The translations under genes and the position numbers were made by a program. Shown piece by piece: positions 6,052 to 18,778 of a DNA stretch of 44,389 nucleotides. The notes under the pieces are model-generated. The model saw only the letters and a program-made list of their open reading frames with translations, made no database searches and was not told where the DNA came from. The DNA comes from Acidobacteriota bacterium (GTDB lineage Bacteria > Acidobacteriota > UBA6911). The stretch lies in contig JAAYCX010000009.1 in the NCBI GenBank assembly GCA_012729555.1, positions 1 through 44,389 on the forward strand, given 5' to 3'. The stretch's first letter is position 1; each line of letters opens with the position of its first letter.

Positions 6052-7287
6052 CTAAATCCCCGCCAGTTGTACCACGCGCTCCCCGGGATGGTCCAGGGCC
6101 AGCATCAGCAGCAGGTAGTCCTTCACGTGCCGGGTTATGAGAAAATTCTCCCTGACGTAGCGCTGTCCGTTCTCCCCCAGCTTCCGGCACAGTTCCGGGT
6201 TGGACAGCAGCTCCACCGCCCGGTTGGCGGCCCCTTCCGGGGAATGGATCAGAAACCCGGTCACCCCGTTGATGATCTGGAGCCGGATCCCGCCCACGGC
6301 CCCCCCGATCACGGGCTTCCCTTTCCAGAGCCCCTCGCTGACCGTCAACCCGAACCCCTCCCGGATCGACTTCTGGAAAACGATCGTGGAGCCGCGCACC
6401 AGGGCGTTGATCTCCAGGTCGCTGAACGGGGGGAGGAGCAGGACATGGATGTCGGGATCCTTCGCCGCGGCCTCCTCGACCTCCCGGAGCACCTCCGCCC
6501 CTTCGGGATCGTCGTCGGCGCCGCCGCCGGCGAGCACCAGCTGGCAGTCGCAGTGCCGCCGGACCATCCGGTAGGACTCGATCACGCCCAGGGGGTCCTT
6601 GAGCCGGTCGAAGCGCGAAATCTGGGTCAGGACGGGGCGCTCCGGGTCGATCCCGAACCGCTCCAGCACCCCGCGGACGACCTCCGGCTCCAGCTCCCGG
6701 TTCTTGTCGCTCAGCGGGTCGATCGAGGGGGCGATCCGGTACTGGGGAACCGGCATGTCCCGGGCGAAATCGGGCATCGAAAACACGGCGGCGTCGTACC
6801 TTTCCACCCAGGGCCTCAGGAATTCCCAGACGGCGGGGTCCGGGTTGGACACGTCGATATGGCAGCGCCAGATCCACTGGCGCCCGATGGCCGCCTTCTT
6901 TTCGATGAGGCCCGCGGGCTGGGGGTCGTGGACGAAAAGGACGTCCCCCTCGAGCTTCATCTCCTCGAGGTTCATCGCCGTGTTTTCCCGAAAGACCTCC
7001 AGCATCTTGGGCGTGATCGTTTCGGGATGCCCGTGAAGCGCGTTATGGAAGGCCTTGGTCACGGCGTAGAACGCCTCGTTCCCCTTGATGACGTCCCAGG
7101 TGGCGTCCACGCCCAGTTCCCGCAGGAGCGGGATCATGCGGGTGAGGATCTCCGCCACCCCGCCCCCCACGGGGGTTGAATTGATGTTCTGCAGCGACTT
7201 GTGGCACACGTACCCGGCGAGCATCCGGATCTCGTCCATGACCTCCGGGCCCACGACCTTCTCGTAATCCGCAAGCGTGACCGCCAT
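6052..7287 (-). CDS. treT: Trehalose glycosyltransferring synthase (GT4)
   Basis: A 411-residue cytoplasmic GT4 glycosyltransferase of the TreT type, which makes trehalose reversibly from NDP-glucose and glucose. Diagnostic features are 'NINSTPVGGGVAEIL' near residue 35, the donor region 'QISRFDRLKDPLGVI', 'LVLAGGGADDDPE', and the C-terminal nucleotide-sugar motif 'REGFGLTVSEGLWKG', where the two glutamates form the EX7E pair. Length is as expected. A strong ribosome site (GGGAGGGAGG) adjoins the ATG. The gene lies 11 bases downstream of a DUF5752 gene, a common companion of treT. A second trehalose pathway (OtsA-OtsB) is encoded on the other strand of this island. Confidence 0.9.
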   Translation of the reverse strand: MAVTLADYEKVVGPEVMDEIRMLAGYVCHKSLQNINSTPVGGGVAEILTRMIPLLRELGVDATWDVIKGNEAFYAVTKAFHNALHGHPETITPKMLEVFRENTAMNLEEMKLEGDVLFVHDPQPAGLIEKKAAIGRQWIWRCHIDVSNPDPAVWEFLRPWVERYDAAVFSMPDFARDMPVPQYRIAPSIDPLSDKNRELEPEVVRGVLERFGIDPERPVLTQISRFDRLKDPLGVIESYRMVRRHCDCQLVLAGGGADDDPEGAEVLREVEEAAAKDPDIHVLLLPPFSDLEINALVRGSTIVFQKSIREGFGLTVSEGLWKGKPVIGGAVGGIRLQIINGVTGFLIHSPEGAANRAVELLSNPELCRKLGENGQRYVRENFLITRHVKDYLLLMLALDHPGERVVQLAGI

Positions 7288-10032: not shown

Positions 10033-12822
10033 ATGGAAACAAGCGATTTTCCCTCCCTCTGGCGCGGGTTCACCGAAGAGCTGGAAGCCCGCAACCGGGT
10101 TCTCCAGGCCGAGCTCGCCGCGGCATGGGAACAGCTGGACTCCCTGCTCGGGCGGCACTCGGAGAAGATCGCGCGCGCGGAGGGGGTGCGCCCCCCGGAA
10201 GGGTCGCTCGAATCGATCCGGGAGCTGGCGACAACCCGGGCCGCACCGTATTTGTCCGACCCCCTGCAGGCCCTGAAGAGGATCCACCCGCAGGAGAGGG
10301 CGCTCCGCGCCCTCGAGACCTTCCAGACCGGCCTGGAGGATCTCCTCGGCCTCCTGCCGCAGACCCTCACGGTCCCGCGCGGGGAGCTGGCGGCGGAGTT
10401 GTGCCGCGACGGCCGGCCCCTCCGGCGGCTGGCGCTCCGCCTGGGGCGCAAACCCCGGGTGCTCCAGCCCCGCCCGGTCCTCCGCCAGGCGCTGTGGGCG
10501 CACTCGGCCCGGCGGGTGGAGCCGGACGGCGATCTCCTGCTCCTGCTGGCCCGCGCGAGCCTGGCGCTCCTCATCCCCTGGCAACTGCTGCGCAACGACA
10601 CGCTCCGGGCCATGGCCGGCAACCCCTCCGATCCCCGGACGCTGGACAAGGCCCGGGCGGAGTGGCTGGAGATGGTGGGATCGATCCGGAGGGACGCGGC
10701 GCGGGCCCTCGAGGCCCAGGGCGACAGGTGCCGCCGGCTGCGGGGGGAGCTGGAAGCCGCCCTGCTGGCCGGGGAGCGGCGCCTCGCCGACCGGCGCCTC
10801 GGCCGCGCCATGAACCGCTGGCAACGGTGTTTCCGCTACTGGGCCGGCCGCCAGCGGGCCATCCTGGCACAGCTGGAACTGGAAGCCTCCTCCCGCAGCC
10901 TGCTGGAGGGCTCGGTGGGGGTCTCCGAAGACGCGGTGCGCTCCGTCGACGAGGAGCATGCCCTTCTCCTCGGCGAACTCGACAAGGTCGGCCGATGGTT
11001 GTCGGGCTGGCGGGAGGGGGAGACCGAATCCCCGTTCCCGCCGCCCGGGGCGCACCTGGTCTCCTCCGCCGACCGGGCGTCCGATTGGAAGCGGCGGCTG
11101 GAAGCCGCGGGCAGGGGCGCGCTGCCGGCTTCCATCGAATCGGTGGACCTCGGGCGTCCCCTCCCCGGCCGCCGGCCGCGGTCCCGCTCCGTCCCGGCCG
11201 AAGCCCGCTTCACCCGGTCGCTCGCCGGCACCGGGCGCGAACTGGCCCTCGCCGGCTTCGGGGAGGCGGAGGAAGGGCATCGCGCCATCATCCAGCAGAT
11301 AGAACGCGCCCGCGAAGTCGCCGCCTACAGCCTGGAAGCGGGGCGCGAGGAAGGAGGGAGCGAGGAGGGGCGTCAGGTCGTCCGCGACGGCATCTCCAAC
11401 GCGCTGAAGCTGCTCGAACACCAGAGGAAATCGACCCGCGACCATCACCCCGTCATCGGGCGGAAACTCGCGGAGGCGCTGTCCGGCGTCTTCTTCCAGT
11501 TTCACATCCGGATGGAGGAAAGCCGGCTGGGGCTTTTCCGGCACCTGGCACGGCAGAAGAGCCGCCAGGCGCTGCGCGCGGGCGCCCTGACGGTCATGGA
11601 GAGGGTCGGGAGCGGTTCGGACTGGCTTGGCGACCACCTCGCCCTTGCCAATCAGTATGTCCTCGCCAAGCTCGGCTGGGCCCCCCCTTCCACCATCGCC
11701 GTGCAGCCGGTCTCCCGCCGTCCCTACCTCGGGGAGGTCCTGCACCTGAAAGCGGGGCCGAGGGAACTCCCCGCGATCTACCGGCGCCTCTTCCGGCTGG
11801 CCCCCCTGGAGGACACCCGGTTCCTGGTGGGGCGCGAGACCGAAATGGCCGCCGCCGCCGAGGCGCGGCAGCGCTGGGAGGAGGGGCGCGCGGTCGCCAT
11901 CCTCGTGGCCGGGGCGCGCGGGAGCGGGAAGACCAGCTTCCTGAACTGCGCCCGCGCGGGCGTCTTCGGCGATCTCCCCCTCTCGAGCGGACAGTTCGGC
12001 GAAAGGATCACCACCGCCCCCGCGATGCGCTCCTTCCTCTCCGCCCTGCTCGCGATCGAGGACGCCGAGCTCGAATCGCGGCTGAAATCGGAAAGGCGGC
12101 TGGTGATCCTGGAAGAGGTCGAACGCACCTTCATCCGCCGCATCGGCGGGTTCGAGGGGCTGCGGGCCCTGCTCGACCTGATCTCCACCACCTGCCGGAA
12201 CACCCTCTGGATCCTCAGCCTGAACGAGTCGGCGCTCGGGTACCTCCGGCAGGTGGTCGGGATGGAGGAGTACTTCTCCCACCGGATCAACGCCATGGCC
12301 GTTTCGCCGCGGCACCTCAAGAGCGCCATCCTGCAGAGGCACAACCTCTCCGGCCTCCGCCTCCACTTCGCCCAGCCTCCACCCGAGGAATCGCGCCGGG
12401 GCAGGATCGGGAAGCTGCTGGGACTCCGCCGGGAGCCCGAACAGAACTATTTCGATTCGCTCTACCGGCAGTCGGAGGGGATCTTCCGTTCGGCCTTCGA
12501 GCTGTGGCAGGAGTCGGTGGACAGGGTGGAAGGGGGCGTGCTCTACATGCGGCACCCGGTCGAACCCTCCTACGAGGGGATCATCTCGCGCCTTACCCTG
12601 GAGGACTCCTTCATCCTGCAGGCGATCCTGCAGCACGGGGGGCTGACGCCGGGGGAGATCGCGCGGGTCTTCGACTATTCCGAGCGGCGGAGCGACAGCT
12701 GCATCGAGAAACTGATCTCCTGGGAAATCATCGAGCCGGACCCCTCGAATCCCGGTTTCCGCGTCTGCCCGGAGGCCGGGCGCCTGGTGCGCCAGGCCCT
12801 GTACCGGCAGAACCTGCTATAG
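10033..12822 (+). CDS. Large STAND/AAA_16-like ATPase with helical N-terminus and C-terminal winged helix, paired with MscS
   Basis: A 929-residue protein I cannot assign to a named family. Residues 1-590 are mostly charged and helical, with coiled-coil-like stretches and a short hydrophobic patch ('LLLLLARASLALLIPW', about 170-185). The ATPase core starts with 'FLVGRETEM' (597-605), the usual entry to AAA_16/STAND domains. Walker A is 'GARGSGKTS' (627-635, K633) and Walker B 'LVILEEVER' (690-698). A Walker-B-like Glu replaces the usual Asp. The last 75 residues ('LTPGEIARVFDYSERR', then 'LISWEIIEPDP') look like a winged helix, as in Orc1/STAND proteins. MscS starts 3-9 bases after its stop, so the two are translationally coupled. 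It may gate or assemble the channel, or transduce an osmotic signal; both are inference. An ATG at 9931 is an alternative start. Confidence 0.8.
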   Translation: METSDFPSLWRGFTEELEARNRVLQAELAAAWEQLDSLLGRHSEKIARAEGVRPPEGSLESIRELATTRAAPYLSDPLQALKRIHPQERALRALETFQTGLEDLLGLLPQTLTVPRGELAAELCRDGRPLRRLALRLGRKPRVLQPRPVLRQALWAHSARRVEPDGDLLLLLARASLALLIPWQLLRNDTLRAMAGNPSDPRTLDKARAEWLEMVGSIRRDAARALEAQGDRCRRLRGELEAALLAGERRLADRRLGRAMNRWQRCFRYWAGRQRAILAQLELEASSRSLLEGSVGVSEDAVRSVDEEHALLLGELDKVGRWLSGWREGETESPFPPPGAHLVSSADRASDWKRRLEAAGRGALPASIESVDLGRPLPGRRPRSRSVPAEARFTRSLAGTGRELALAGFGEAEEGHRAIIQQIERAREVAAYSLEAGREEGGSEEGRQVVRDGISNALKLLEHQRKSTRDHHPVIGRKLAEALSGVFFQFHIRMEESRLGLFRHLARQKSRQALRAGALTVMERVGSGSDWLGDHLALANQYVLAKLGWAPPSTIAVQPVSRRPYLGEVLHLKAGPRELPAIYRRLFRLAPLEDTRFLVGRETEMAAAAEARQRWEEGRAVAILVAGARGSGKTSFLNCARAGVFGDLPLSSGQFGERITTAPAMRSFLSALLAIEDAELESRLKSERRLVILEEVERTFIRRIGGFEGLRALLDLISTTCRNTLWILSLNESALGYLRQVVGMEEYFSHRINAMAVSPRHLKSAILQRHNLSGLRLHFAQPPPEESRRGRIGKLLGLRREPEQNYFDSLYRQSEGIFRSAFELWQESVDRVEGGVLYMRHPVEPSYEGIISRLTLEDSFILQAILQHGGLTPGEIARVFDYSERRSDSCIEKLISWEIIEPDPSNPGFRVCPEAGRLVRQALYRQNLL

Positions 12823-12831
12823 GGGATGACC

Positions 12832-13677
12832 ATGCCCGCGTTTGCGCACCCTCCCTTTGTCGCCATCGAGCTCGACCGGATTTCCCTCCCGGGAGAGGTC
12901 ACCCCGGGAAAGATCCTGGAAATCATAGTCCTGGTGGTCGCCGCGTGGGCCGTCATCCGCTGGCTCTCGAAGCTGTTCCAGCTCCTGGGCGGGAAGATCC
13001 CCCGTTCGCGCTTCCTGATGAAGCTCCTCGAGCCCGCCGCGCGGATCGGGATCTGGTTCGCCGCCATCTTCATCTCCATCCGGATCCTGGCCCCCTCGCA
13101 CGAGGCGTTCCTGGCCTCGCTCGCATCCATGGGCCTGGCCATAGGCCTCGGCGCCCAGGACCTCATCAAGAACGTCATCGGCGGCCTCGTCGTCCTCGTC
13201 GACCGCCCCTACCAGCTCGGCGACCGCGTGAGGATCGGCGACGCCTACGGGGAGATCGACCACGTGGGGCTCAGGAGCACGAAGCTGACGACGCCCGACG
13301 ACACCCGGGTGACGATCCCGAACCTGGACATCCTGACCCAGCAGGTCCACAACGCGAACTCGGGGGTGCCCGACTGCCAGGTCGTCACCGACCTCTACCT
13401 TCCCCCCGGCACCGACCCGGAAACCGCCATCGGGATCGGCTACGAAGCGGCCGCCTGTTCCCCCTACCTGCTGGCGGAGAAACCGATCGTGGCCCTGGTG
13501 TCGCAGGGGTTCGACCAGCAGGCCTACCTGCGCCTCCGGGTCAAGGCCTACGTCTACGACCACCGTTACGAACCCCGCATGATGAGCGACGTCACCAGCC
13601 GCGCCACCAGCGAGTTTCTGCGCCTGGGGCTCCTCGAGGGCTGGAAAAGCCGCCCCCCCGGGGGCTCGCGCGCCTGA
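12832..13677 (+). CDS. MscS-family small-conductance mechanosensitive channel
   Basis: A 281-residue inner-membrane channel that opens under membrane tension to release solutes on hypo-osmotic shock. It has about three helices, the pore-lining third helix rich in Ala/Gly ('SMGLAIGLGAQDLIKNVIGG'), then the conserved beta domain 'VLVDRPYQLGDRVRIG', 'GEIDHVGLRSTKL' and 'VTIPN'. The length matches E. coli MscS. The ribosome site AGGGG at 12821-12825 is well spaced for the ATG at 12832 and touches the alternative ATG at 12826, so the later start is preferred. It lies directly behind the large ATPase gene and ahead of a universal stress protein and trehalose genes. Confidence 0.92.
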   Translation: MPAFAHPPFVAIELDRISLPGEVTPGKILEIIVLVVAAWAVIRWLSKLFQLLGGKIPRSRFLMKLLEPAARIGIWFAAIFISIRILAPSHEAFLASLASMGLAIGLGAQDLIKNVIGGLVVLVDRPYQLGDRVRIGDAYGEIDHVGLRSTKLTTPDDTRVTIPNLDILTQQVHNANSGVPDCQVVTDLYLPPGTDPETAIGIGYEAAACSPYLLAEKPIVALVSQGFDQQAYLRLRVKAYVYDHRYEPRMMSDVTSRATSEFLRLGLLEGWKSRPPGGSRA

Positions 13678-13732
13678 TCCGTGGTATGGTATGGGTAGAA
13701 GCCTAACCGTTCACCCGAGAAAGGAGACCCCC

Positions 13733-14605
13733 ATGTTCCGTACCACCGGCCCCGTTTTTGCCGCCGTAAGGCTGGACGAATCCGCCGACGAGGTGCTCCG
13801 CCAGGCCGTGGAGATCGCCCGGCATTACGGCGTGAAGCTCTACGTCTGCCACGTCCTCCCCGATGTCGGGGCGGTGCGCCCCCTCTTCCCCCAGCTGCAG
13901 ATGGAGGACGCCCTCCGGACGACCGATTTCGAGGCCGGGGTGTATCGCGCCCTCTCGGAGCGGGTCGCCGCCTTCACGCCCCCCCGGGGGAAGGAGTGCG
14001 AACTCAAGATCGAGTACGGAACCGAGCACGCGGCCATCATCGACGCCGCGGAGCAGGTCGGCGCGGGGATGATCGTCGTGGGCCACGGTTCCGAGAAGCA
14101 CCGCCTGGGCGGGATCTCGGAGCGCGTCGTCCGCCACGCCCACTGCCCGGTCCTGGTCGCGCGCCCCCCGGAGAAGGGGGGGGTGCTGGCGGCCACCGAC
14201 TTCTCCGACCCCTCGACCCCCGCCGTGGATGCCGCCGCGAGCGAAGCCGGAAGGAGAGGGCGCGAACTCCGCGTCGTCCACGCCTTCGACATCCTCCGCT
14301 ACGGCATGGTGACCGACCCGACCATGCCCGGCCTGCTGCCGCTCGATTTCTCCGCCGAAATCGAGGAGGCGCTCCGGGGCCACCTCGACGAGTGCGTCCG
14401 CCGGGTCGGGGCCGCCGAGGGGCTCCTGGTGCGCGGGGCCGCGGACCGGGCCGTCGTGGAGACGGCCGAAAAGCTCGAAGCGGACCTGGTCGTGGTCGCC
14501 ACGCGGGGACGGACCGGGCTCGCCCACCTGGCGCTCGGGAGCGTGGCCGAGGCGGTCGTGCGCGGGGCCGCCTGCTCGGTCCTCGTCGTCCGGATGAAGG
14601 CTTGA
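13733..14605 (+). CDS. Tandem-domain universal stress protein
   Basis: A 290-residue cytoplasmic protein with two UspA domains, residues about 5-145 and 150-290. Each ends in the nucleotide-binding pattern: '[18 protein letters not shown]' in the first and '[17 protein letters not shown]' in the second. UspA-type proteins bind ATP and help cells survive starvation and other stress; their molecular targets are usually unknown. The ATG at 13733 follows a perfect AAGGAG six bases upstream, which rules out the longer frame starting at 13691. A TGGTATGGT extended -10-like element around 13682-13690 could give it its own promoter. The next gene, glgB, begins 28 bases later. Confidence 0.92.
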
Positions 14606-14633: not shown

Positions 14634-16538
14634 ATGACGAGCGACCGCCTGACCGATTTCGACCTCCACCTGATCGGCGAGGGGACCCACTACCGCACCT
14701 GGGAAAAGCTGGGGGCCCACCCGGGCCGCCTCGACGGGGCCCCGGGAACCTTTTTCCGGGTATGGGCGCCCAACGCCCGGCGCGTTTCCGTCATCGGCGA
14801 TTTCAACGGGTGGGACCGGGAGGCGGCCCCCCTCCAGCCGCGGGGTTCCTCCGGAATCTGGGACGGGTTCGCGCCCGGGGTGAAGTCCGGAGACCTCTAC
14901 AAGTACTTCATCGAGTCGCGCTACGGCGGCTACGCCGTCGAAAAGGCCGACCCTTACGGCTTCGCGGCCGAAATCCGCCCCCGGACCGCCTCCAAGGTGT
15001 GGGACCTGTCGGCCTACGACTGGCAGGACGGTGAGTGGATGCGCGCCCGCCCGGGGCGCCGCCCCCACGAGGAGGCGCTCTCGATCTACGAAGTCCATCT
15101 CGGCTCCTGGATGCGCGCGCCGGAGGAGGGGGACCGCTGGCTCACCTACCGCGAGCTCGCGCCCCGGCTCGCCGACCACGTGTGCAGGCTGGGCTTCACC
15201 CACGTGGAGATGATGCCGGTTTCGGAGCACCCCTTCGATGGCTCCTGGGGCTACCAGACCGTGGGCTACTTCGCCCCCACCAGCCGTTTCGGGACCCCCG
15301 ACGATTTCATGCACCTCGTCGACGTTCTGCACCGGAGCGGCATCGGCGTCATCCTCGACTGGGTCCCCGCCCACTTCCCCCGGGACGAGCACGGGCTGGG
15401 CTACTTCGACGGCACCCACCTGTACGAGCACGCCGACCGGCGCCAGGGGCTGCACCCGGACTGGGACACCCTGGTGTTCAACTACGGCCGCACCGAGGTG
15501 CAGAACTTCCTGATCAGCAACGCCGTCTTCTGGTTCGACCGCTACCACATCGACGCCCTGCGCGTCGACGCCGTCGCCTCGATGATCTATCTCGACTACG
15601 GCCGCGGGGAGGGGGAATGGGTCCCCAACCGTCACGGCGGCCGGGAAAACCTGGAAGCGGTCGATTTCCTGAAAAAGCTCAACGAGCGCGTGCACGCCGA
15701 AGCCCCCGGGGCCATGGTCATCGCCGAGGAATCGACCGCCTGGCCGATGGTCTCGCGCCCCACCTGGCTGGGAGGCCTGGGGTTCGGGTTCAAGTGGAAC
15801 ATGGGATGGATGCACGACATGCTCGAGTACATGCGTCACGACCCCGTGCACCGCAGCTGGCACCACAACAAGATCACCTTCAGCCTGCTCTACGCCTTCA
15901 CGGAGAATTTCGTCCTCCCCTTTTCCCACGACGAGGTCGTGCACGGGAAGGGATCGATGATCGGGAAGATGCCGGGGGACCCGTGGCAGAAATTCGCCAA
16001 CCTGCGCCTCCTCTACGGCTACATGTTCGGGCATCCCGGCAAGAAACTCCTCTTCATGGGGGGCGAATTCGGCCAGTGGGCCGAATGGGACCACGACCGG
16101 AGCCTCGACTGGCACCTGCTCCAGTACCCGCTCCACTCGGGGCTCGAGCGGTGGGTGGGGGATCTGAACGCCTTCTACCGTTCGGAACCGGCCATGTATG
16201 AACTCGACGCGGAACCGGCCGGGTTCGAGTGGATCGACTGCGACGACGGCCAGAACAGCTGCGTCAGCCTGCTCCGCTTCGGCCGGCGGCGCGAACTCCC
16301 GGTGGCCGTGGTCTGCAATTTCACCCCGGTGCCGCGCCATGACTACCGCATCGGCGTCCCTTCGGGCGGCGTGTGGGTCGAAGCCCTCAACAGCGACGCC
16401 TCCGTCTACGGCGGGAGCGGGATGGGCAACCTCGGGAGGATAGAGGCCTCCCCCCACGGGATGCACGGCCGCCCCTGCTCGCTCGGCCTCACCCTCCCCC
16501 CCCTGTCCACCCTGGTCCTCAGGAGGGAGGGGGCATGA
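14634..16538 (+). CDS. glgB: 1,4-alpha-glucan branching enzyme
   Basis: A 634-residue GH13 enzyme that cuts an alpha-1,4-glucan and rejoins the piece through an alpha-1,6 bond, making branches in glycogen. An N-terminal CBM48-like domain ('[19 protein letters not shown]') precedes the barrel. The catalytic residues are visible: nucleophile D312 in 'LRVDAV', acid/base E365 or E366 in 'IAEEST', and D433 in '[13 protein letters not shown]'. '[13 protein letters not shown]' is the branching-enzyme form of region I. It lacks the extra N-terminal domain of the E. coli enzyme and is of the shorter kind. It overlaps otsAB by 4 bases, so glycogen and trehalose synthesis are co-expressed here; no glgA or glgC is present in the window. 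Confidence 0.95.
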
Positions 16539-18778
16539 AACGCGGCAGGATGCCGACCGCGGGACGGCTGATCGTGGTCTCCAACCGGCTCCCGTTCACG
16601 GCGAGGGAACGGGAGGGGGGGCTCGAGTTCACCCCGAGCGTGGGGGGGCTCGCGACCGGGTTGGCCTCCTACCGGGAATCGCTGCAGGAGCGGCCGCAGG
16701 GCCCCCGGCGTTTCCTCTGGGTCGGCTGGCCCGGGAGCACCGTGTCGGAGGAGCGCCAGCGGGAGGTACGGGCAAGATCGCTCGACGAATTCAGCGCGGT
16801 CCCCGTCTTCCTTTCCGAAGCCGAGATCGACAAGTTCTACCAGGGGTTCTGCAACAAGACCATCTGGCCCCTTTTTCACTGCTTCCAGGTCTACACGAAC
16901 TACGACGAGGAGCACTGGGAGCGCTACGTCGAGGTCAACCGCACCTTCTGCCGGACGCTCGCCGGGCTGCTCCGCCCCGGGGACACCCTCTGGATCCACG
17001 ACTACCACCTGATGCTCCTGCCCGGGATGGTCCGGGAGATCGCCCCGGCGGCCACCATCGGGTTCTTCCTGCACATCCCCTTCCCCAACTACGAGCTCTT
17101 CCGCCTCCTCCCCAGCCGGTGGAGGCACGACATCCTGAAAGGGCTGCTCGGCGCCGATCTCGTGGGATTCCACACCAACGACTACCGGCAGGACTTCCTG
17201 AAATGCGTCCTGCGCATCCTGGGACACGACTCCCAGATCGGCGAACTGCTGGTGGGGGACCGGGTCGTGAGGGCCGAGGCCTTCCCCATGGGGATCGACT
17301 ACGCGAAATACCGCGACGGGGCCGGCGCCCCGGAGGTGCGGGCCGAAAGCCTCGACCTCAGGCGGCGGATGGACGGGGCCAGGATCATTCTCTCCATCGA
17401 CCGCCTGGACTACACCAAGGGGATCGTCAACCGGCTGGAGGGGTTCGAAACCTTCCTGGACCACCACCCCGACCGGCGCGGCGGGGTGGTGCTGGTCATG
17501 GTCGTCGTCCCCTCGCGCGTGGCCGTCGAGCATTACGAGATGATGAAGGGGCAGATCGAGGCCCTGGTGGGCAGGATCAACGGGAGATTCGGCAGGCCGG
17601 GCTGGACCCCCGTGGTCTACATGTACCGGAGCCTTCCCTTCGCCCCCCTCGCGGCCCTGTACGCCGCGAGCGACATCGCGCTGGTCACCCCCCTGCGCGA
17701 CGGCATGAACCTGGTCGCCAAGGAGTACATCGCCTGCCGCACCGACCGGACGGGGGTGTTGATCCTGAGCGAGATGGCGGGAGCGGCCCAGGAGCTGCTC
17801 GAGGCCGTCACCATCAACCCGAACAGCCGCCACGAGATCGCCGAGGCCATCGACGGGGCCCTCCGCATGCCCGAACCGGAGCAGGTCCGGCGCAATACGG
17901 CGATGCAGGGCAGAATCGAACGTTACGACGTGGTCCGCTGGGTGGCCGATTTCATGGAGGAGCTTTCGGGCGTCAAGGGGAAGAGCCGGATGTATCTCGC
18001 CAGGCGGCTGACCGGACCGGTCCGTGCCACCGTCGCCGAAGCGTGGCGCGCGGGCCGCCGCAGGCTCCTCCTCCTCGACTACGACGGGACCCTCGTCCCC
18101 TTCGCCGCCGACCCCGGGGCGGCCGTTCCCGCACCCCCCCTGCTCGCCCTGATCGGCGATCTCTGCGGCCAGCCCGGCACCGACGTCGTCATCGTCAGCG
18201 GCCGGGACAAGGCTTTCCTCGAGCACTGGTTCGCCGACACCGTCACCGGACTGGTGGCGGAGCACGGCGCCTGGATCCGGGAAAAGGGGCGCACGTGGAG
18301 GAAGACGGCCAAGCGGACCGGCGCCTGGAAGTCGAAACTGAAACCGATGTTCGAACGGTACGCCGAGCGCGTCCCGGGGGCGTTCGTGGAGGAGAAGGAT
18401 TTCGCCCTGGTGTGGCACTACCGGGCCGCGGAGCGGGGGCCGGCCAAGCTGGCGGCCCAGGAGCTGAAGGACCAGCTGCTGGCCCTGACGGCCAACATCG
18501 ACGTCCACGTCCTGCAGGGGAACAAGACCGTGGAAGCCCGGGTCGCGGGGGTGAACAAGGGGACCGCGGGCCTCCATTTCCTCGCCCGCAAGTCCTACGA
18601 CTTCGTCCTCTCGATCGGGGACGACGCCACCGACGAGGACCTGTTCGCGGTCCTGCCCGAGACCGCGTGGTCGATCCGCGTGGGGATGGGCGCCACCCTG
18701 GCCAGATACAACATCGCCGGGGTGGAGGAGGTGCTCCGGCTGCTCGCGGAACTGGCTACTCCGAAAAACGCTCCATGA
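16535..18778 (+). CDS. otsAB: Bifunctional trehalose-6-phosphate synthase/phosphatase (OtsA-OtsB fusion)
   Basis: A 747-residue fusion. Residues about 10-480 are OtsA (GT20), which joins UDP-glucose and glucose-6-phosphate: 'VVSNRLPF', 'WPLFHCF', '[11 protein letters not shown]', '[11 protein letters not shown]' and '[14 protein letters not shown]' are all present. Residues about 505-745 are OtsB, a HAD phosphatase with nucleophile D515 and acid D517 in 'DYDGTL', and '[12 protein letters not shown]' near the end. The one protein therefore turns sugar phosphates into trehalose. Such fusions are standard in eukaryotes and found in scattered bacteria. The start is set by a 4-base overlap with glgB and the GGAGGGAGG site ahead of it. 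Its last 23 bases overlap the convergent ClC gene. Confidence 0.95.

Follow-up and report, generated by a model that had tools for sequence, protein, structure and literature searches.

The window, which is the whole 44,389-nt stretch of DNA analysed here, comes from an Acidobacteriota bacterium (contig JAAYCX010000009.1) and carries a gene for a large ATPase immediately followed by an mscS gene (Table 1). The gap between the two genes is 3 nt when mscS is read from its first ATG and 9 nt when it is read from the second, which agrees with the earlier note, where the ATPase frame was described as ending a few bases before an MscS gene. Judged from the letters, the second ATG is the likelier start because the AGGGG motif lies 6 nt upstream of it. 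A terminator-like site between the ATPase gene and mscS was looked for in the window, and none was seen.

Table 1 Features of the ATPase–mscS locus and its surroundings, in positions of the window
Feature	Position	Strand	Remark
TreT_GT1 trehalose synthase, glycogen branching enzyme, fused trehalose-phosphate synthase/phosphatase	6052-7287, 14634-18778		
ATPase partner gene, 929 aa	10033..12822	+	helical bundle 1-546, AAA+ about 580-840, winged helix 848-929
N-terminal helical bundle coding region, residues 1-575	10033..11757	+	replaced by other modules in relatives
Core: AAA+ (ORC/Cdc6-STAND type) and winged helix	11755..12819	+	common to all family members
AGGGG, sharing bases with the ATPase stop codon; probable ribosome-binding site of ATG 12832	12821..12825	+	letters read directly; role inferred
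mscS, partnered subfamily	12826..13677	+	283 aa from ATG 12826, 281 aa from ATG 12832
Universal stress protein, two Usp domains	13691..14605	+	13 nt 3' of mscS
ClC-type channel with CBS domains and C-terminal TPR region, 952 aa	18756-21614		

Both frames can be regarded as real proteins, because codon statistics show purifying selection on both genes (dN/dS 0.16–0.30 against a 92%-identical relative and 0.07–0.19 against a relative of 61% identity, with 0.07 for the ATPase core and for MscS in the latter comparison). The start codon of the ATPase is kept in two relatives (METSDF/MDTSEF). The closest relative (L016, 92% identity), an Acidobacteria MAG and apparently contig JAFGSS010000017.1, is the only other locus at which the Usp gene adjoins the pair. 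The neighbours of the pair in the window include trehalose synthesis genes and the ClC channel, that is, osmolyte and chloride functions.

Within the ATPase, LVGRE is found at residues 598–602, a Walker A motif (GARGSGKT) at 627–634 and a Walker B-like motif (LVILEEVER) at 690–698. The earlier note had listed VGRE together with Walker A and B motifs; the first two hold as described, while the third is present in the form hhhhEE and not as the classic hhhhD[D/E]. An AlphaFold model of the protein (mean pLDDT 81.7) gave the three regions listed in Table 1, and the long helical N-terminus and C-terminal winged helix proposed for this protein are both present in it. Against Pfam AAA_16 the window protein scored 29.3 bits, under the 32.6-bit cut-off, which was passed by two relatives (L019 and L020); the nSTAND1 cut-off was passed by a third (L066) and not by the window protein. 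The match of L019 to TIGR02928 was far below its cut-off, and a search of the PDB by sequence with the single window ATPase returned no match. The fold of the modelled core is closest to ORC/Cdc6, with 1w5t as the best Foldseek hit (E 1.1e-7), and VIA-align over residues about 577–928 gave Z scores of 14.2–15.6. The core matches ORC/Cdc6 and PABY2304 (2qen) at 13–18% identity. The model presents the core as an AAA+ domain of the ORC/Cdc6-STAND type followed by a winged helix, and the label "STAND-like" is fair in a loose sense, although the nearest fold is that of ORC/Cdc6 and the window protein stays under the nSTAND1 cut-off.

The N-terminal bundle had no Pfam match, and Foldseek with the bundle alone gave none at E ≤ 0.001. 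A known unrelated family was therefore not recovered for the N-terminus by Pfam or Foldseek, and the proposal of a dedicated pair stands on this point. The top PDB alignments of the bundle (designed bundles, Tsr, vinculin and, at Z 8.7, a bacterial dynamin) were dismissed, since scores of this level are expected for helical bundles. No match to sensor repeats (TPR, WD, LRR or HEAT) was found in the window ATPase, which has the helical bundle instead. An internal repeat suspected within the bundle was unsupported on checking, and a candidate transmembrane segment at residues 168–186 was not kept beyond the closest relative.

The association of the two genes was then followed across genomes. Of 31 ATPase family members, 30 are followed directly by an mscS gene in the same orientation. 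The members come from Acidobacteriota, Novosphingobium and Caulobacter plasmids and a haloarchaeal plasmid and represent fewer than 31 independent lineages. The dedicated pairing suggested in the earlier note is well borne out by this count, as homologues lying mostly away from mscS had been named there as the contrary outcome. In 100 related genomes, the source genome among them, a protein search located the ATPase at ten sites, all with an MscS-domain gene directly 3' on the same strand. When 396 genomes of the phylum were scanned with a profile built from the 355-aa conserved core, 19 members were recovered at E ≤ 5e-25, followed by a gap down to ≤ 5e-9 for generic ATPases; mscS is directly 3' in 18 of the 19. 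The same arrangement was seen in a Blastocatellia MAG (L031), and seven further members, each adjoining mscS, came from a subsequent search within one class. For comparison, loci matched weakly by generic AAA models were inspected; of 13 such loci, none or one had mscS (one doubtful match, domain E 0.0066).

All four units found on plasmids are paired, two in Novosphingobium and one each in Salinirubellus and Caulobacter (carriers: Novosphingobium pentaromativorans US6-1, Caulobacter sp. NIBR2454 and Salinirubellus sp. SYNS196). The type B core (described below) and the window MscS, used as separate plasmid queries, led to the same three records (two of Novosphingobium and one of Salinirubellus), in which the two genes are neighbours; plasmid searches with the window ATPase and with L061 gave no match. 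A scan of genome contigs by a loose pattern gave at least three loci, with JAFGSS010000017.1 again among them, and the counts outside Acidobacteriota rest mainly on plasmids and do not amount to a systematic survey. Of 15 measured pairs, 12 have a gap of ≤ 14 nt or overlap by 4 nt, and 4-nt overlaps are also present in the archaeon (Salinirubellus) and in Caulobacter.

The pairing also holds in the reverse direction. Carrier genomes have 2–10 mscS genes each, and among the 396 genomes 15 of the 16 MscS matches at E ≤ 1e-40 adjoin the ATPase. The exceptions are an ATPase-like gene (L069) without adjacent mscS and a partnered-type mscS of genome G333 without adjacent ATPase. This genome holds both halves, namely the partial core match L069 (4305-7016) and, elsewhere, the partnered-type mscS in a 664-aa frame (L100, 4519-6510), and possibly represents a unit that was split apart.

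Comparison of the family members showed that the AAA+/winged-helix core is the only part common to all of them, while the module ahead of it is exchanged. In type A, which includes the window protein and most members, the core is preceded by a helical bundle that is soluble and about 570 aa long. Type B (L021, L065 and L066) has a CPA2 cation:proton antiporter and a long linker, with TrkH and TrkA beside L021 and another antiporter beside L065 and L066. Type C is a fusion with a K-Cl cotransporter (L024, TIGR00930, 5.9e-108), with a second case, L110, in which the contig ends. Type D (L023, L067 and L068, Novosphingobium) carries a coiled-coil region on the periplasmic side along with several membrane helices. 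Shorter soluble N-termini are found in L022 and L109, and the minimal form, in Salinirubellus, is a 331-aa core alone together with its MscS. Homology among the N-termini of types A, B, C and D was not demonstrable, apart from a weak resemblance between the linkers of B and C. Near the type C unit, the protein encoded at L024 85-1872 has a histone-deacetylase domain and matches GNAT weakly.

The window MscS matches PF00924 with 75.8 bits (cut-off 20.2; 2.8e-21), and its pore helix TM3 is rich in Gly and Ala (GLAIGLGAQDLIKNVIGG). It had no match to the C-terminal domain PF21082 at E ≤ 1, and this region is conserved among the partnered MscS proteins. The Gly/Ala pore pattern is intact in all type A members (window, GLAIGLGAQDLIKN) and gone in types B and C, where the helix is bulky (e.g., LAMLFIWFVLRD in L024). 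The MscS partners of the transporter-fused units L021, L024, L065 and L066 have lost the usual small-residue pore pattern. Judging by these pore helices, the type B and C partners may differ from ordinary channels and might not conduct as MscS does.

In the phylogenetic analysis, all 18 sampled partnered MscS proteins grouped apart from 28 unpartnered ones (support 94). The ATPase and MscS trees were congruent, with a Spearman rho of 0.76 that none of 5000 permutations reached and 7 of 15 splits in common; this comparison used partnered MscS only, from an earlier alignment, and the tree with support 94 came from a separate corrected alignment. Genomes G026 and G273 have two units apiece; these differ in type, and each is paired with an MscS of the corresponding type.

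Given these results, we consider the ATPase and mscS to be one functional unit, in which an ATP-binding regulatory protein has an MscS-type channel under its control, with a probability of roughly 55%. Conserved gene order is evidence of co-function and not of gating. Several other readings of the pair were weighed against this one.

The AAA+/winged-helix layout is shared with STAND transcription factors and DNA-binding ORC proteins, so the ATPase might be a MalT-type regulator that acts on mscS and its neighbours through DNA binding by its winged helix. The domain is mostly acidic, with a net charge of -1 to -4 in every type A member, and it is tied to membrane segments in types B–D. DNA binding by this domain is unlikely on these grounds, its acidity suggests a protein-binding role instead, and we regard a transcription regulator as very improbable. 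The acidity likewise speaks against a role as replication initiator with binding to origin DNA. Most members end in an (Q/R)NLL-like C-terminal tail, which is RQNLL in the window ATPase.

The transporter fusions, together with the degenerate MscS pore helices of types B and C and the presence of TrkH/TrkA and a second antiporter as neighbours, would fit an energised or coupled transport complex. The ATPase, the transporter part and the MscS homologue would then form one machine, with MscS serving as a scaffold or regulated valve and not as a tension channel. This appears unlikely, as type A, to which the window belongs, retains the Gly/Ala pore pattern and has a soluble N-terminus.

Some immune systems are known to combine an ATPase of STAND-like type with an effector at the membrane, and the earlier note had raised a sensor-effector module with the channel as output, as in some immune systems. 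On this reading, the ATPase would detect infection and channel opening would kill or arrest the cell. Besides this layout, the patchy spread of the family (19 matches in 396 genomes of the phylum) and a faint RdrA match could be cited for it. The latter scored 12.4 bits against a cut-off of 600, PADLOC gave nothing convincing in the members and the sample of neighbours scanned, and a search of viral contigs returned no relatives. A match of 19.9 bits in L020 falls in the response-regulator part of this member. Ion transporters are not immune inputs, and the low dN/dS of both genes at 61% identity also speaks against this reading. An immune function is therefore disfavoured by the comparisons made, and we rate it as improbable.

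The nucleotide site varies within the family. The GxP motif is absent in the window ATPase, which has SEGIFR instead, and in type A; GxP-like GNP, GIP or GLP occurs in type C, type D and L065 only. In type D the second Walker B acid is absent, and L065 has GKR at Walker A. In the Salinirubellus core (L103, 8959-9954) GRE replaces the Walker A GK[ST], and the Walker lysine is absent. The archaeal site and the GKR of L065 suggest that in some members nucleotide binding may be weak or not followed by hydrolysis. With type D included, these variants point to possibly weak or missing ATP hydrolysis in some members. The haloarchaeal core is a possible natural pseudo-ATPase that still overlaps its mscS by 4 nt.

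These degraded sites bear on the reading of the ATPase as an assembly or quality-control factor, which would insert, assemble, localise or remove the MscS heptamer without gating it. A dedicated chaperone would suit the strict pairing, and at the level of fold Clp-type AAA+ remodellers are among the non-ORC profile matches and the model aligns with NSF D2. However, the ordinary MscS homologues of the same genomes have no such partner, a chaperone leaves the antiporter and K-Cl cotransporter fusions unexplained, and the nucleotide sites are degraded in several members; this reading too is unlikely.

Several known systems resemble parts of this unit. TrkA-TrkH and KtrA-KtrB are two-gene units in which an ion pathway opens under the control of a cytoplasmic nucleotide-binding protein, and TrkA/TrkH even adjoin one type B locus; their ring is of the RCK type and not AAA+, the pathway is that of TrkH and not MscS, and they have no swapped transporter N-termini. 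MgtE is modulated by ATP bound in its own CBS domain (PMC5529423). Like KATP (SUR-Kir), it is a channel tuned by an ATP-binding protein or domain, but the domains are ABC or CBS and the channels are unrelated to MscS. The partnered channel here is an MscS homologue (PF00924), and the MscS superfamily includes ligand-regulated variants such as bCNG channels; here it would be a separate AAA+ protein that exerts the control, and the partnered MscS proteins form a separate group. ORC/Cdc6 and the Walker-type ATPase PABY2304 are the closest solved folds, AAA+ followed by a winged helix, but in this family the winged helix is mostly acidic and the tie is to mscS and not to replication. STAND NTPases (nSTAND1, AAA_16) share Walker A and a winged helix after the ATPase, and differ in that the window ATPase has an hhhhEE Walker B, with no GxP in type A and no repeat sensor found. 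With RADAR RdrA the likeness is a faint P-loop similarity, and the partner here is mscS and not a deaminase.

CPA2 and KCC families move K+, cations or Cl-, and MscS releases solutes. In types B and C such transporters precede the core, and a solute-releasing channel follows it. The ATPase is most likely a nucleotide-state switch that links the opening of its MscS to nucleotide state and to the N-terminal input. The AAA+/winged-helix core would alternate between nucleotide states and dock on or near the cytoplasmic cage of its partner MscS, with the winged helix and the conserved C-terminal tail as possible contact sites; we infer both this contact and the direction of control. The docked core would set the readiness of MscS to open, and the module ahead of it, whether soluble bundle, cation:proton antiporter, K-Cl cotransporter or periplasmic/membrane region, would act as the input. 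Provided that the partnered MscS conducts, the release of solutes and K+ would depend on energy state, on ion load or on the state of the envelope, beyond membrane tension alone. Because the core is fused to antiporter or K-Cl cotransporter modules, the family points to ion and volume homeostasis as its function, and not to immunity.

Textbooks describe MscS as a passive valve that opens under membrane tension and needs no source of energy. No published ATPase-MscS system was found among the openly accessible papers searched. We tentatively propose, at somewhat less than even odds, an undescribed modular system of bacteria and archaea in which a nucleotide-switching AAA+ protein with interchangeable inputs takes over the gating of a dedicated MscS subfamily, which would make it the first ATP-controlled MscS. 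Both components belong to known superfamilies, and what would be new is the system, that is, AAA+ control of a dedicated MscS. If this is true, cells could arm or hold an MscS valve by ATP and ion state.

A second, unpartnered mscS is often found close to the unit (L017, L019, L104, L106, L107 and L108). In two distant genomes, the pair and a second mscS are followed by the gene of a membrane protein that starts with MAHVSHKL and has a Usp domain at its C-terminus (L017, 11936-14152; L019, 13118-15391).
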